A stretch of 64,000 bases of DNA, from positions 124,001 through 188,000 of the forward strand of contig NZ_QUNO01000014.1 in the NCBI RefSeq assembly GCF_003387475.1. Direction: 5' to 3'. A program made the position numbers and the translations under genes. Positions 34,033 through 51,885 of the stretch are shown here, in pieces (position 1 is the first letter of the stretch; the number at the start of each line of letters is the position of its first letter). Below the pieces are notes generated by a model. The model worked only from the letters and a program-made list of their open reading frames with translations. It did not search any database and was not told the DNA's origin. This stretch comes from Kutzneria buriramensis. Lineage in GTDB: Bacteria; Actinomycetota; Actinomycetes; Mycobacteriales; Pseudonocardiaceae.

Positions 34033-34992
34033 ATGGCTGCCCGTACCGAGAACTCCGTTCACGTCAACGCACCGTTCGAACTGGTCTGGGACATCACCAA
34101 CGACGTCCCCGGCTGGCCGCGGCTGTTCAGCGAGTACGCCGAGGCCGAGGTGCTCGAGCAGAAGGCGGACTACGTCAAGTTCCGGCTGACCATGCACCCC
34201 GACGAGCAGGGCCGGGTGTGGAGCTGGGTGTCCGAGCGGGAGCTGGACCGCGCGGCGCGCACCGTGGTGGCGCGCCGGGTGGAGACGGGTCCCTTCGAGT
34301 ACATGAACATCCGCTGGACCTACGAGCCGTCCGCGGACGGCGGCACCGTGATGCGCTGGGTGCAGGAGTTCCAGATGAAGCCGGGCGCGCCCGTGGACGA
34401 CGCCGGCATGCGGGACCGGATCAACAGCAACAGCACGATCCAGCTGGCGCTGATCAAGAGCACCATCGAGGGCGCGGCGGCGGCCAAGAGCCTGCGCGGC
34501 TACGTGCTGCCGGGCGTCGGCGACACCGAGGTGGATCTGTCCACAAGGGTCGGTCGGCCGCTGGTGGTGATCGTGGGCAACCGGATCACCCAGAAGGCCG
34601 GGCACGACCTGGTGGACGCGCTGCGCACCGACCCGGTCACCGCGGAGGTGCCGATCATCCAGGTGGCGCACCTCCAGGGCGTGCCGCGCAGCCTGCACAA
34701 GGTGGCCGAGCGGGACATCGCCGGCGGCCGGGCCAAGCAGGTCGAGCGGGCGGTGCGGCTGCGCACCGAGGCCGGGCTGGTCGCCACCGGCGAGGACGAG
34801 GCCATCGGCCTCGCCCTGGACTGGCAGGGCATCCTCGGCGGCCACTACGGCTTCGGCGCGCGGGACAAGGCGCCGCTGACCATCGTCACCGACCCGTACC
34901 TCTGCGTGCTGACCGTGATCCGGACCGACGACGCCCTGCCCGGCATCCGCGCGGCCCTGGACGCCATCGCCGTCAAGGAGGCCGTGTCGTGA
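34033..34992 (+). CDS. SRPBCC aromatase/cyclase fused to a GNRxTQK domain
   Basis: The first 150 residues of this 319-residue protein are a START/SRPBCC polyketide aromatase/cyclase ([32 protein letters not shown]). These shape the first rings of the nascent polyketide. Residues 156-319 repeat the domain encoded alone by the preceding gene, including [16 protein letters not shown] (177-191) and [14 protein letters not shown]. Usual aromatases have one or two SRPBCC domains, so this C-terminal partner is unusual. It overlaps the glycosylase gene by GTGA. Confidence 0.87.
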
Positions 34993-35909
34993 CCGCCATC
35001 CTGGAGCCGACGCGGGTCGTGGGCGTGCTGCCCGCCGCCCAGCCGTTCGACCTCCGCACGTCCATCCGCTTCCTCAAGGGCTTCGGCGCCTGCCGCGGCG
35101 ACCAGGTGATGACGGTGGACAGCCTGACCAAGGCCATCGCCGTCGACGGCCAGGCCATCGCGTTCAAGGTCGCATCTCGCAAGGGCGGCGTGGACTACGT
35201 GCTGCACTCCGACGAGCCGATCTCGCCGGCGACAAGAGAAGTGGTGTGCCACAAGATCGACGGCTACCTGAGCCTGTCCGACGACCTGGCCGAGTTCTAC
35301 GCGCTGGCCGAGACCGACCACCCGGCCTACGCCCGGCTGGTGCGCAACCTCTGGGGCCTGCACCAGGTCCGCTTCCTCACGGTGGCGGAGATCGGCGTGT
35401 GGGCGGTGCTCTCGCAGCGCACCCCGAAGAACATCTCCACCTCGCTCAAGCGCCGCATCACCCAGATGTTCGGGCGCAAGGTCACCTTCGAGGGCGCCGA
35501 GTACCAGGCGTTCCCGGAGCTCACGGACCTCGTGCACCTGACCGCCGCCGACTGGGTCGGCATCGTCAAGAACGGCCGCAAGGCTGAGTACCTGGCGTCC
35601 CTTGTGGACGGTCTGCTGGACATCGGCGAGGACTACCTGGCCACCGCCCCGTACGACGAGGCGACCAAGGCGCTGCGCCGGATCAAGGGCATCGGCGAGT
35701 TCTCCGCCGCCGCGATCCTGTTGCGGGGCCTGGGCCGGATGGACTTCGTGCCGCTGGACATGCCCAACTTCGCGGAGGCCACCGCCAAGATCTACGGCGA
35801 GGGCTACGACAACCAGAAGCTGCGCGACCGCTACGGCAAGCACCTGGGCTACTGGGCGTACTACCTGCACACCGCCCTTGGCGCGCTCAAGGAAGAGGCC
35901 CTCGCATGA
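34989..35909 (+). CDS. HhH-GPD DNA glycosylase (AlkA-like), copy 1
   Basis: This 306-residue protein belongs to the DNA-3-methyladenine glycosylase II-like family. The helix-hairpin-helix reads [20 protein letters not shown], followed by [10 protein letters not shown], whose Asp fits the catalytic position. The middle has VLSQRTPKN, also typical. Family members remove alkylated bases from DNA. It sits inside the core polyketide operon, coupled by GTGA and ATGA overlaps, and has a close copy at 50938-51885. This points to self-resistance against a DNA-alkylating product rather than housekeeping repair. Confidence 0.92.
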
Positions 35910-36385
35910 GCCGGCTTCCCGTGAGCCTGACCCAGGACTTCGAGCTGATGCCGGACGAGGCCCGCGCGCAGGTGCTGTTCATCAGCAAGACCCGGCTGAC
36001 GCTGAAGGGTTTCCTCACCGGCGGGCCGCTGGTGTGGAAGATGATGCGCCGGCTCAAGAAGACGCCGGGCTTCGTGTTCCACAAGGGACTGTTCAAGTTC
36101 CCCCTGACCACCGGCGCGATCGCATTCTTCGAGAACTACGAGTCGCTCCAGGAGTTCGCCCGCTCGCCGGAGCACCTGGCTCTGGTCAAGTGGGGCACGG
36201 TGCCGGGCCGGGTGCGCAGCGGCTTCATCCGGATCATGCGCACCGCGCCGACCGGCAGCGGGTTCGGCGACTGGATCAAGCCCGAGGAGCAGCAGTCGCT
36301 GGACCGCCGGCGGCTGATCCCGATCGTGGCCCGCGAAACCGACTGGGACGACCAGTTGAGCATCACTAGTGGGAGGACGGCATGA
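35906..36385 (+). CDS. ABM-like (dimeric alpha/beta-barrel) protein
   Basis: This 159-residue protein probably has a ferredoxin-like dimeric alpha/beta-barrel fold. Signs are the pattern WKMMRRLKKTPGFVFHKG and FFENYESLQEFARSPEHLALVKW. Relatives include monooxygenase-like and DUF4188-like proteins. In polyketide clusters such proteins oxidise anthrones to quinones or act as cyclases. It is longer than single ABM domains. It overlaps both neighbours by 4 bp. Function is tentative. Confidence 0.6.
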   Translation: MSRLPVSLTQDFELMPDEARAQVLFISKTRLTLKGFLTGGPLVWKMMRRLKKTPGFVFHKGLFKFPLTTGAIAFFENYESLQEFARSPEHLALVKWGTVPGRVRSGFIRIMRTAPTGSGFGDWIKPEEQQSLDRRRLIPIVARETDWDDQLSITSGRTA

Positions 36386-37107
36386 CCCGCACGGCACTGG
36401 TCACCGGCGCGAGCCGGGGCATCGGCAAGGCCGTGGTGCAGCGGCTGCTGGCCGACGGCGTCCGCGTGTGCGGCCTCTACCGCACCGAAGGCGAGGCGGC
36501 CCAGCTGCTGGCCAAGGAGCTGGAGTCCGCGTCCCCCAAGGGGATCGCGTTGCAGTGCGACATCTCCGACGAGCAGCAGGTGCACGCGGCGGTCGCCCGC
36601 TGCGCCGAGGAGTTCGGCGGCGTGGACGTGCTGGTCAACAACGCCGGCGTGACCACGTTCTCGTTGCTGGACAACCTGGAGCGGGCGCACTGGGACAGCA
36701 TGTTCGCCACCAACGTCACCGGGCCGTACCTGGTGACGCGGGCCGTCCTGCCGCTGATGGGCCCCGGCGCGAGCATCGTCACGATCACCTCCGGGCTGGG
36801 CATCACCGGCGCGCCCGGCAAGACGCACTACGCGGCGAGCAAGGCCGCGCTGATCGGCTTCACCAAGGCGCTCAGCCGCGAGGTGGGCCGGCGCAACATC
36901 CGCGTCAACGCCATCGCGCCCGGGATCATCGAGACCGAGATGTCCGCCGTGGGCCTCAATCCCGAACTGCGCGCCCGCTACGAGGGCCAGTGCGCGCTCG
37001 GCCGCATCGGGCAGTCGCCCGAGCTGGCCGAGGTCGTGGCCTTCCTCGCCGACCACCGTTCCTCCTACGTCAACGGCCAGACCCTGATGGTCGACGGCGG
37101 AATGTGA
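36382..37107 (+). CDS. SDR-type ketoreductase 1
   Basis: This 241-residue short-chain dehydrogenase has NADPH loop TGASRGIGKA, NNAG, catalytic Ser in TITSGLG and YAASK, followed by the FabG-like end VNGQTLMVDGGM. It probably reduces a keto group of the polyketide. Its sequence resembles FabG/ActIII-type reductases. It overlaps the preceding gene by ATGA and is followed 8 bp later by a second reductase. Confidence 0.9.
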   Translation: MTRTALVTGASRGIGKAVVQRLLADGVRVCGLYRTEGEAAQLLAKELESASPKGIALQCDISDEQQVHAAVARCAEEFGGVDVLVNNAGVTTFSLLDNLERAHWDSMFATNVTGPYLVTRAVLPLMGPGASIVTITSGLGITGAPGKTHYAASKAALIGFTKALSREVGRRNIRVNAIAPGIIETEMSAVGLNPELRARYEGQCALGRIGQSPELAEVVAFLADHRSSYVNGQTLMVDGGM

Positions 37108-37115
37108 GAGATGTC

Positions 37116-50851: not shown

Positions 50852-50886
50852 GCCGACAAATATGCCACCGATGTGGGACATGTTCT

Positions 50887-50900
50887 GACCTATATGGGTC
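50887..50900. promoter_or_regulatory. Candidate operator for WYL regulator/glycosylase
   Basis: GACC-TATATG-GGTC is a short palindrome centred between the WYL and glycosylase genes. A near-palindrome GGGACATGTTC lies just to its left. The element is a likely site for the regulator, and its AT-rich centre may overlap a -10 region. Confidence 0.45.
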
Positions 50901-50937
50901 CTACCGTCGGGCCAGACGACAACCGAGGGAGCCCGCG

Positions 50938-51885
50938 ATGACCGCCAGCACGATCACCCCGACCAGCGTCTCCGGCGTGCTGCCGGCGGCCCAGCCGTTC
51001 GATCTGCGCACGTCGATCCGCTTTCTCCAGGGCTTCGGCGCCTGCCGCGGCGACCAGATCATGACCGAGGACACGCTGACCAAGGCCATCGCCATCGGCG
51101 GCCAGGCCGTCGTGTTCCGGGTGACGCCGACCGAGGGCGGCGTCGACTACGACCTGCACTCCGACCGTCCCATCTCCGCCGGGCTGCGGGCCGCGGTGCT
51201 GGACAAGATCGACGGCTACCTGAGCCTGTCCGACGACCTGTCCGAGTTCTACGCCCAGGCCGCCGGCGACCACCCCGACTACGCGCGGCTGGTCAAGGCG
51301 CTGTGGGGGCTGCACCAGGTCCGGTTCCTGACGGTGGCCGAGATCGGCGTCTGGGCGGTGCTGTCCCAGCGCACCCCGAAGAACGTCTCGACCTCGCTCA
51401 AGCGCCGCATCACCCAGATGTTCGGCCGCAAGATCAGCTACGACGGGCTGGAGTTCCAGGCGTTCCCGGAGCTCACCGACCTGCGGCCGCTGGACGTGAG
51501 CGACTGGATCTCGATCGTCAAGAACGCGCGCAAGGCGGAGTACCTGGCCAGCCTCGTCGAGGGACTGCTGGACATCGGCGAGGACTACCTGCGCACCGCG
51601 TCCTACACCCAGGCCACCAAGGCGCTGCGCGGCATCAAGGGCGTCGGCGAGTTCTCGGCCGCCGCGATCCTGCTGCGCGGGCTCGGGCGGATGGACTTCG
51701 TGCCGCTGGACATGCCGGCGTTCGCCGACGCGACCGCGAAGGTGTACGGGGAGGGCTACGACAACCAGAAGCTGCGCAGCCGCTACGGTGACAACCTCGG
51801 TTACTGGGCGTACTACCTGCACACCGGCTTGGGGGCGCTGAAGAACGAGGCGCTGGGGCCCGTGGCCTGCGGCGCCGGTCGCTGA
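50938..51885 (+). CDS. HhH-GPD DNA glycosylase (AlkA-like), copy 2
   Basis: This 315-residue protein is a close copy of the one at 34989-35909. Shared blocks include [29 protein letters not shown] and [14 protein letters not shown]. The helix-hairpin-helix reads [20 protein letters not shown] and the catalytic Asp is kept. The C-terminus is slightly longer. It should excise damaged bases. Its own promoter and the divergent WYL regulator suggest that it is inducible, whereas copy 1 is tied to the polyketide operon. Confidence 0.92.
   Translation: MTASTITPTSVSGVLPAAQPFDLRTSIRFLQGFGACRGDQIMTEDTLTKAIAIGGQAVVFRVTPTEGGVDYDLHSDRPISAGLRAAVLDKIDGYLSLSDDLSEFYAQAAGDHPDYARLVKALWGLHQVRFLTVAEIGVWAVLSQRTPKNVSTSLKRRITQMFGRKISYDGLEFQAFPELTDLRPLDVSDWISIVKNARKAEYLASLVEGLLDIGEDYLRTASYTQATKALRGIKGVGEFSAAAILLRGLGRMDFVPLDMPAFADATAKVYGEGYDNQKLRSRYGDNLGYWAYYLHTGLGALKNEALGPVACGAGR

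Follow-up and report, generated by a model that had tools for sequence, protein, structure and literature searches.

Two families of DNA glycosylase, YtkR2/AlkD and AlkZ/YcaQ, are named for biosynthetic clusters in the portion of PMC8934636 that was available, which also reports that TxnU2/TxnU4 (trioxacarcin) and LldU1/LldU5 (LL-D49194), of the HTH_42/AlkZ family, excise product-DNA adducts. The HTH_42/AlkZ-like enzymes HedH4 (hedamycin) and AlkZ (azinomycin B) are likewise cluster-encoded and serve self-protection (PMC9040887), and the AlkD-related YtkR2, encoded in the yatakemycin cluster, serves self-resistance (PMC8626424), again according to the available parts of these papers. Self-resistance by a glycosylase points to genotoxic products. 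Here we analyze a stretch of 64,000 nucleotides from Kutzneria buriramensis (contig NZ_QUNO01000014.1, positions 124,001 to 188,000; hereafter, the window, to which coordinates refer), in which a type II polyketide cluster contains two genes for divergent glycosylases of the HhH-GPD (helix-hairpin-helix) superfamily, GLY1 (copy 1, 34989..35909, forward strand) within the polyketide synthase (PKS) operon and GLY2 (copy 2, 50938..51885, forward strand), both identified as open reading frames (ORFs) with profile matches. Judging from comparative sequence analysis, we estimate a probability of about 0.55 that GLY1 and GLY2 are repair-based self-resistance enzymes of this cluster.

The locus resembles the trioxacarcin and LL-D49194 clusters in having two glycosylase genes in an aromatic polyketide cluster (PMC8934636, in the part available). 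However, unlike TxnU2/TxnU4 and LldU1/LldU5, the two copies belong to a different superfamily: there is no match to HTH_42 (PF06224) in the window, the seven such genes of this genome lying elsewhere, including one at a distance of 29 kb from the right end of the window. With HedH4, AlkZ and YtkR2 the copies share the location in a cluster, but they are HhH-GPD proteins rather than HTH_42/AlkZ-like, and neither has a Pfam match to an AlkD-type domain at E ≤ 1. An earlier interpretation of the window from its letters (the sequence-only reading) had held that known cluster glycosylases are AlkD-like or HTH_42 proteins, which is true of the published ones that we found, in the parts available (PMC8934636, PMC9040887, PMC8626424). 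A cluster-encoded HhH-GPD glycosylase was not found in the open-licence literature as judged by titles and the beginnings of abstracts, which is no proof of absence.

Both ORFs are located where the sequence-only reading had placed them. GLY1 is indeed locked into the operon by 4-bp overlaps, its start at 34989 overlapping the aromatase/cyclase (ARO/CYC) gene at 34033-34992 (GTGA) and its end at 35909 overlapping the next gene, which starts at 35906 (ATGA); a divergent gene for a WYL regulator lies beside GLY2, and the type II polyketide synthase is recognizable by its ketosynthase (KS-alpha), chain length factor (CLF), acyl carrier protein (ACP), ARO/CYC and TcmI-type cyclase. The copies were, by contrast, wrongly described as near-identical: with 238 of 303 residues (79%) identical in protein and 82% identity in DNA, they are only related. 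The statement that they bracket the cluster is loose, GLY2 being next to last in a conserved block (27213-52599) but GLY1 lying in its interior. When the genome (11,968,322 bases in 65 contigs, the window being on contig C14) was searched with copy 1, only the two copies matched, with nothing further at E ≤ 10; a scan with PF00730 identified six other HhH-GPD genes elsewhere in the genome and neither of the copies. Compared with their counterparts in Kutzneria sp. 744, copy 1 and copy 2 show dN/dS values of 0.20 and 0.185, respectively, indicative of purifying selection and comparable with 0.13-0.22 for eight other genes of the block (KS, CLF, ARO/CYC, af470, KR1, OMT, WYL and MFS); between the two copies dN/dS is 0.37. 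The pair is therefore not due to chance, given that these are the sole two matches in the genome and both are under purifying selection.

Membership in the HhH-GPD superfamily emerges from a profile (A3) built from an alignment of 20 relatives, which matches 47 distinct sequences in PDB at E ≤ 0.001. The best match is a 3-methyladenine DNA glycosylase (2jhj, E = 1.7e-22), which we take to be A. fulgidus AlkA, followed by an N-glycosylase/DNA lyase (6g3x, 2.4e-14), an 8-oxoguanine glycosylase (3f10, 8e-14) and a 3-methyladenine glycosylase II (1diz, 6.8e-11), presumably OGG1, Clostridium OGG and E. coli AlkA, respectively; a single-sequence phmmer search also supports membership (9.2e-7). Thus, AlkA and OGG1 are the nearest solved structures by profile, but the copies differ from both in being very divergent and in lacking the OGG lysine. 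They score 27.5 and 32.5 of the 229 bits required by the NCBIfam AlkA equivalog model NF007641 and 41.2 and 34.2 of the 397.85 bits of the ogg model (E = 1e-10 for copy 1), and neither reaches the PF00730 gathering score (26.2 bits), copy 2 scoring 13.8 bits and copy 1 being unlisted at E ≤ 1. Both copies contain the hairpin, as GIGEF or GVGEF in agreement with the pattern G-[IV]-G, followed by an Asp; the hairpin and the Asp have motif roles, the Asp being the presumed catalytic residue. All 20 aligned rows retain the hairpin glycines G234 and G236. Asp257 in copy 1, like the equivalent residue in copy 2, aligns with the Asp of an OGG1-type sequence, and the Asp is also present in both copies of Kutzneria sp. 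744. At the place of the OGG lysine, as read from the PDB profile alignment and taken by us to be the nucleophile in the hairpin, copy 1 has Phe (position 238) and all 20 rows have Phe or Trp, so that a monofunctional enzyme is expected. An AlphaFold2 model from six sequences (pLDDT 48.4, pTM 0.38) was too poor and was used for no claim.

The block at 27213..52599, from a two-component regulator to a small ORF after GLY2, aligns collinearly with the Kutzneria sp. 744 genome by blastn, as three long pieces with 88-91% identity, and the two copies are 90% and 93% identical to their counterparts there. Collinearity stops sharply on both sides, with nothing collinear past either end within the 57 kb compared. 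In Kutzneria sp. 744 the block lies at 4.36-4.39 Mb, and the window segments 58881-60700 and 19248-21387 match at 9.98 Mb (85%) and 3.66 Mb (73%), respectively, the remainder of the two 8-kb window flanks giving only short or weak scattered matches. The flanks in Kutzneria sp. 744 match the genome of K. buriramensis merely in a scattered fashion (those longer than 300 bases at 65-74%), and hence no clean empty site was seen. Because the block occupies non-orthologous places, it has moved together with both copies and the WYL gene; both copies thus travel with the cluster, in one pair of species. For the CLF, Kutzneria sp. 744 contains a match at 95%, the other listed matches among 390 genomes of the host's family being at most 57% identical (E ≤ 1e-110, at most four candidates scored per genome), and copy 1 itself was seen nowhere but in the PKS operons of these two genomes. 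This conservation of the whole block strengthens the self-resistance interpretation.

The WYL-domain regulator (49868..50851, reverse strand; Pfam WYL, E = 5.9e-23; start set by the conserved N-terminus) is divergent from GLY2. According to the parts of the literature available, the WYL regulators PafBC, SiwR and DriD function in responses to DNA damage or genotoxic stress, PafBC and DriD doing so through binding of single-stranded DNA. The window protein resembles them in its WYL domain and in a putative tie to DNA damage; it differs in being known from its sequence and in having a candidate site with a single exact match in the genome. This site, a putative WYL operator recognized by alignment, is the inverted repeat TGGGACA-N5-TGACCTA between the WYL gene and GLY2 (50874..50892), and the same repeat halves are present in all five aligned WYL-glycosylase loci (the window, Kutzneria sp. 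744, Amycolatopsis vastitatis and the Kutzneria genomes G002 and G005), an alignment that did not extend to L067 and L117, two WYL-linked loci of remoter relatives. With up to three mismatches, the window contains five matches to the site compared to 2.1 expected, a count that 6 of 100 shuffled sequences reach; one of these, at 47076-47094, falls within the cluster, where the MMPL gene ends. Genome-wide, the 22 matches with up to two mismatches are no more than the 27 of the reversed control.

Of the 390 genomes, 15, counting its own, contain matches to copy 2 at E ≤ 1e-30. Outside the cluster, the closest are in A. echigonensis (85%) and A. vastitatis (84%), followed by G002 (75%) and G005 (70%). 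The divergent WYL partner is retained in A. vastitatis (81%), G002 (73%) and G005 (69%); no WYL gene was detected in the 10 kb per side searched in A. echigonensis. G002 and G005 are collinear with each other across the glycosylase region, which in G002 looks non-biosynthetic in the genes scanned (catalase, IclR, WD40-STAND, LytR, chitinase and others). In A. vastitatis (L049 943-11002), the WYL gene is followed by a run of ACP, KASIII-like, ATP-grasp, PLP-decarboxylase, acyl-CoA-dehydrogenase and ornithine-cyclodeaminase-like genes, a different, biosynthetic-looking operon and possibly another cluster with the same protection. More distant relatives, L067 (on a Deinococcus plasmid), L108, L111 and L115, adjoin a gene of the VOC family, and a YafY/WYL-type gene is found at L067 and L117; these neighbors are suggestive of an old stress unit comprising WYL, VOC and glycosylase genes.

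In a 10-row tree, the two copy-1 genes group together (100/100), within a clade (98/99) that also takes in copy 2 and the Amycolatopsis genes and leaves out G002 and G005. The latter two branch outside both copies and are therefore co-orthologues of both; by their WYL partner they are tied to copy 2. The approximately unbiased test is compatible with three orders of divergence (p-AU = 0.35 for a single clade of the Kutzneria cluster genes, 0.41 for GLY2 with Amycolatopsis and 0.14 for GLY1 with G002 and G005). Since copy 2 is closer to Amycolatopsis than to G002 and G005 of its own genus, horizontal movement of the WYL-glycosylase unit is suggested. In a larger tree, the association with a PKS requires three changes, a count equally low in 3 of 500 shuffles, although low counts are favored by near-copies.

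The sole other place with KS/CLF genes, among those scanned, is a type II polyketide-like cluster on a 23.7-kb plasmid of Staphylococcus haemolyticus (NZ_CP120084.1, L069 5474-13850). There, a relative with 33% identity to copy 1 over 288 amino acids, annotated as hypothetical, is divergent from a run that encodes an FAD enzyme (halogenase-like), a weak ACP-like protein (PP-binding below the cut-off), a protein of no assigned type, an SRPBCC cyclase, a second cyclase, a KS and a CLF-like protein with 21% identity to the window CLF; the relative lies 2 bp before an O-methyltransferase gene. It belongs to the clade of the 20-row subfamily (99/98), where its weakly supported neighbor (88/63) is a gene on a Deinococcus plasmid; that gene is part of a run of YafY-family (which we take to be WYL-type), VOC and glycosylase genes. 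No other plasmid record contains a relative of the S. haemolyticus protein at 60% or more, and a search of the open-licence literature on S. haemolyticus gave nothing related. Separately, a plasmid of S. saprophyticus (L070 6325-8406) encodes a remoter HhH glycosylase, with Ada- and Ogt-like genes adjoining, in an arrangement resembling an adaptive-response unit.

Taken together, the pair is real and probably functional, and self-resistance through a new glycosylase lineage appears most likely from these comparisons. Under this interpretation, the cluster product, which we predict to be DNA-reactive, or a reactive intermediate would modify DNA bases, and the glycosylases, as monofunctional enzymes without the OGG-type lysine, would excise the adducted base and leave an abasic site for ordinary repair. 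We infer that copy 1 is production-linked, and would be produced together with the biosynthetic enzymes, and that copy 2 is damage-inducible, and would be switched on once the WYL regulator detects damage. Copy 1 may have originated when a portable WYL-glycosylase unit was duplicated and one duplicate lost its WYL site and was taken into the operon. Such a two-copy design with one WYL-linked gene is a concrete, testable model of how repair could be coupled to production in a producer. If the interpretation is true, a third glycosylase superfamily would serve self-resistance, one that the Pfam HhH-GPD model does not flag here, which would extend the reach of resistance-guided genome mining, and the AlkA/OGG scaffold might provide enzymes able to remove bulky adducts. 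More tentatively, and at less than even odds, an undescribed, Pfam-hidden HhH-GPD subfamily might have been recruited at least twice (in Kutzneria and on the Staphylococcus plasmid) for type II polyketide self-resistance, in a two-tier form in Kutzneria, where one copy would accompany production and the other would be controlled by a WYL damage switch, and might mark a DNA-modifying aromatic polyketide.

A number of observations weigh against the self-resistance interpretation. No KS or CLF of type II was found in the stretches read of A. echigonensis and A. vastitatis (about 10 kb per side) or of G002 and G005 (about 18 kb per side), and among 30 places of the glycosylase family besides the two Kutzneria clusters (mostly 5-10 kb per side, some contigs being shorter) only one had KS/CLF genes. 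Conversely, the CLF occurs in 58 of the 390 genomes, including the host (E ≤ 1e-110), and a glycosylase adjoins it in only 2 of the 58; in G069 they share a contig, separated by 46 kb. In the plasmid collection, 91 records hold a CLF relative, and at most one of these, a chromosome-sized Nonomuraea record, also matches the glycosylase, 373 kb away, the contexts of 5 of the 10 records with a glycosylase match having been read. Neighbor contexts cover 11 of the 24 other genomes with a match, and the more distant relatives L040-L045 were left out of the neighbor scan. Thus, neither the glycosylase nor the CLF predicts the other, so that copy 1 is a recruitment and the glycosylase family is not specific to PKS. 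Close orthologues of both copies in relatives without the PKS cluster, which the sequence-only reading had regarded as refuting, give a mixed picture: copy 1 was seen in no place other than the PKS operon, in line with that reading, and relatives closer to copy 2 are found in the four genomes that lack KS/CLF in the stretches read. Also unfavorable are that a search of the window found no candidate WYL site before the PKS operon or copy 1, and that no enzyme forming an epoxide or other alkylating group was recognized among the families found in the cluster. Finally, the Asp column over the 20 subfamily rows comprises 13 D, 4 E, 1 T, 1 Q and 1 K, which tells against a simple version of the claim that the helix-hairpin-helix and the catalytic Asp are kept, a claim that holds for the two copies but, as to the Asp, for only 13 of the 20 rows; the Lys belongs to the S. 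haemolyticus plasmid relative and weakens the plasmid case as a catalytic parallel.

This variability, along with the bare detectability of the HhH-GPD domain by Pfam, could indicate that glycosylase chemistry has been lost and that the proteins bind DNA or the product or act as biosynthetic accessories, especially as H125, E134, R144, K154, N195 and W289 never vary in the same rows. We consider such a non-repair role highly improbable, given the Asp in all four copies of the two Kutzneria genomes and the invariant hairpin glycines; moreover, AlkD-type glycosylases function without such an Asp. General damage control is a less remote, albeit still unlikely, explanation, whereby the polyketide, probably a redox-active quinone, would yield ordinary oxidized or alkylated bases and the glycosylases would repair those rather than a product adduct. 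ABM-type oxygenases often form quinones, and the cluster encodes two of these; the profile scores OGG-type chains above the E. coli-type AlkA chain, and the NCBIfam ogg model is listed for copy 1, below its cut-off. However, the OGG lysine is replaced throughout the alignment, the host already possesses six further HhH-GPD genes, and copy 1 is located in a biosynthetic operon, not next to a stress regulator. The WYL-glycosylase pairs without a type II PKS in the stretches read of G002, G005 and A. vastitatis, the last adjoining a different operon, and the WYL-type or VOC neighbors that recur in some distant members would also fit a mobile damage-response unit of WYL and GLY2 that landed by the cluster, with GLY1 a by-product duplicate having no role in tolerance. 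This hitch-hiking appears doubtful, and somewhat more so than damage control, because GLY1 is translationally coupled and under purifying selection, and GLY1, GLY2 and WYL are all retained with the block at different chromosomal places.

The polyketide genes with which the copies are conserved are, unless stated otherwise, on the forward strand and assigned by Pfam. The core consists of KS-alpha (30710..31978; ketoacyl-synt N and C), CLF or KS-beta (31975..33213; also matching 1tqy_B, the actinorhodin putative KS 2, at E = 8e-103), ACP (33255..33515, start approximate; PP-binding, E = 2.6e-6), a 170-amino-acid ORF (33517..34029) and ARO/CYC (34033..34992; Polyketide_cyc). The 170-amino-acid ORF has no Pfam family at E ≤ 0.001 and resembles the C-terminal half of the adjoining ARO/CYC (38% over 168 amino acids to the ARO/CYC region of the Kutzneria sp. 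744 locus); because of this resemblance to the neighboring cyclase, sub-threshold NCBIfam toxin-subunit hits (E = 0.006-0.05) were judged to be chance. After GLY1 follow a weak af470-like monooxygenase (35906..36385; E = 9e-4, 20 of 25 bits, below the cut-off), two SDR/ketoreductases (36382..37107 and 37104..37844), two ABM-type monooxygenases (37847..38146, with the start chosen within ORF 37430-38146, and 38143..38448), an O-methyltransferase (38450..39517), a SchA/CurD-like protein (39626..40006) and a third SDR/ketoreductase (39999..40745). Further downstream are a membrane acyltransferase (42625..43812; Acyl_transf_3), the TcmI-type polyketide cyclase (43825..44151; Cyclase_polyket, E = 7.5e-43) and two exporters (45011..48628), one MMPL (45011-47143) and one MFS (47150-48628). 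A 363-amino-acid protein (48772..49863, reverse strand; DUF7436 at 28.2 of 34.2 bits, below the cut-off), encoded 4 bp after WYL, is 88-91% conserved in Kutzneria sp. 744 and was not found in the other WYL-glycosylase loci compared. The block also includes genes for a histidine kinase, a response regulator, a UbiA-type prenyltransferase, a cupin, a 3-hydroxyisobutyrate-dehydrogenase-like enzyme and an amidohydrolase, as well as several ORFs without a family. The order cupin, KS, CLF, ACP, ARO/CYC, along with SchA/CurD, presumably recalls clusters for spore pigments and pentangular polyphenols.

A role in anti-phage defense was rejected on the PADLOC result: among six proteins scanned, no model matched either copy or the 363-, 222- and 170-amino-acid ORFs, and the WYL protein matched WYL models (E = 3.6e-52, labelled as CRISPR-associated signalling) and, more weakly, others such as Cas3c (4.7e-9). 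A Pfam ArgoMid line for the copies (E = 0.014-0.022, below the cut-off) was judged to be chance. Profile A3 found no relative in a viral scan (11 pattern stretches, none confirmed), and the phage collection contained no match to the glycosylase. Elsewhere in the K. buriramensis genome, a second CLF-like gene (53%) is located at C9:275871-277079, so that the genome probably has one more type II polyketide cluster. To the left of the polyketide block, the window contains a separate RiPP-like (ribosomally synthesized and post-translationally modified peptide) cluster at 2006-19478, with a lantibiotic dehydratase, a ThcOx/nitroreductase oxidase, YcaO, an ABC transporter and an MMPL protein.

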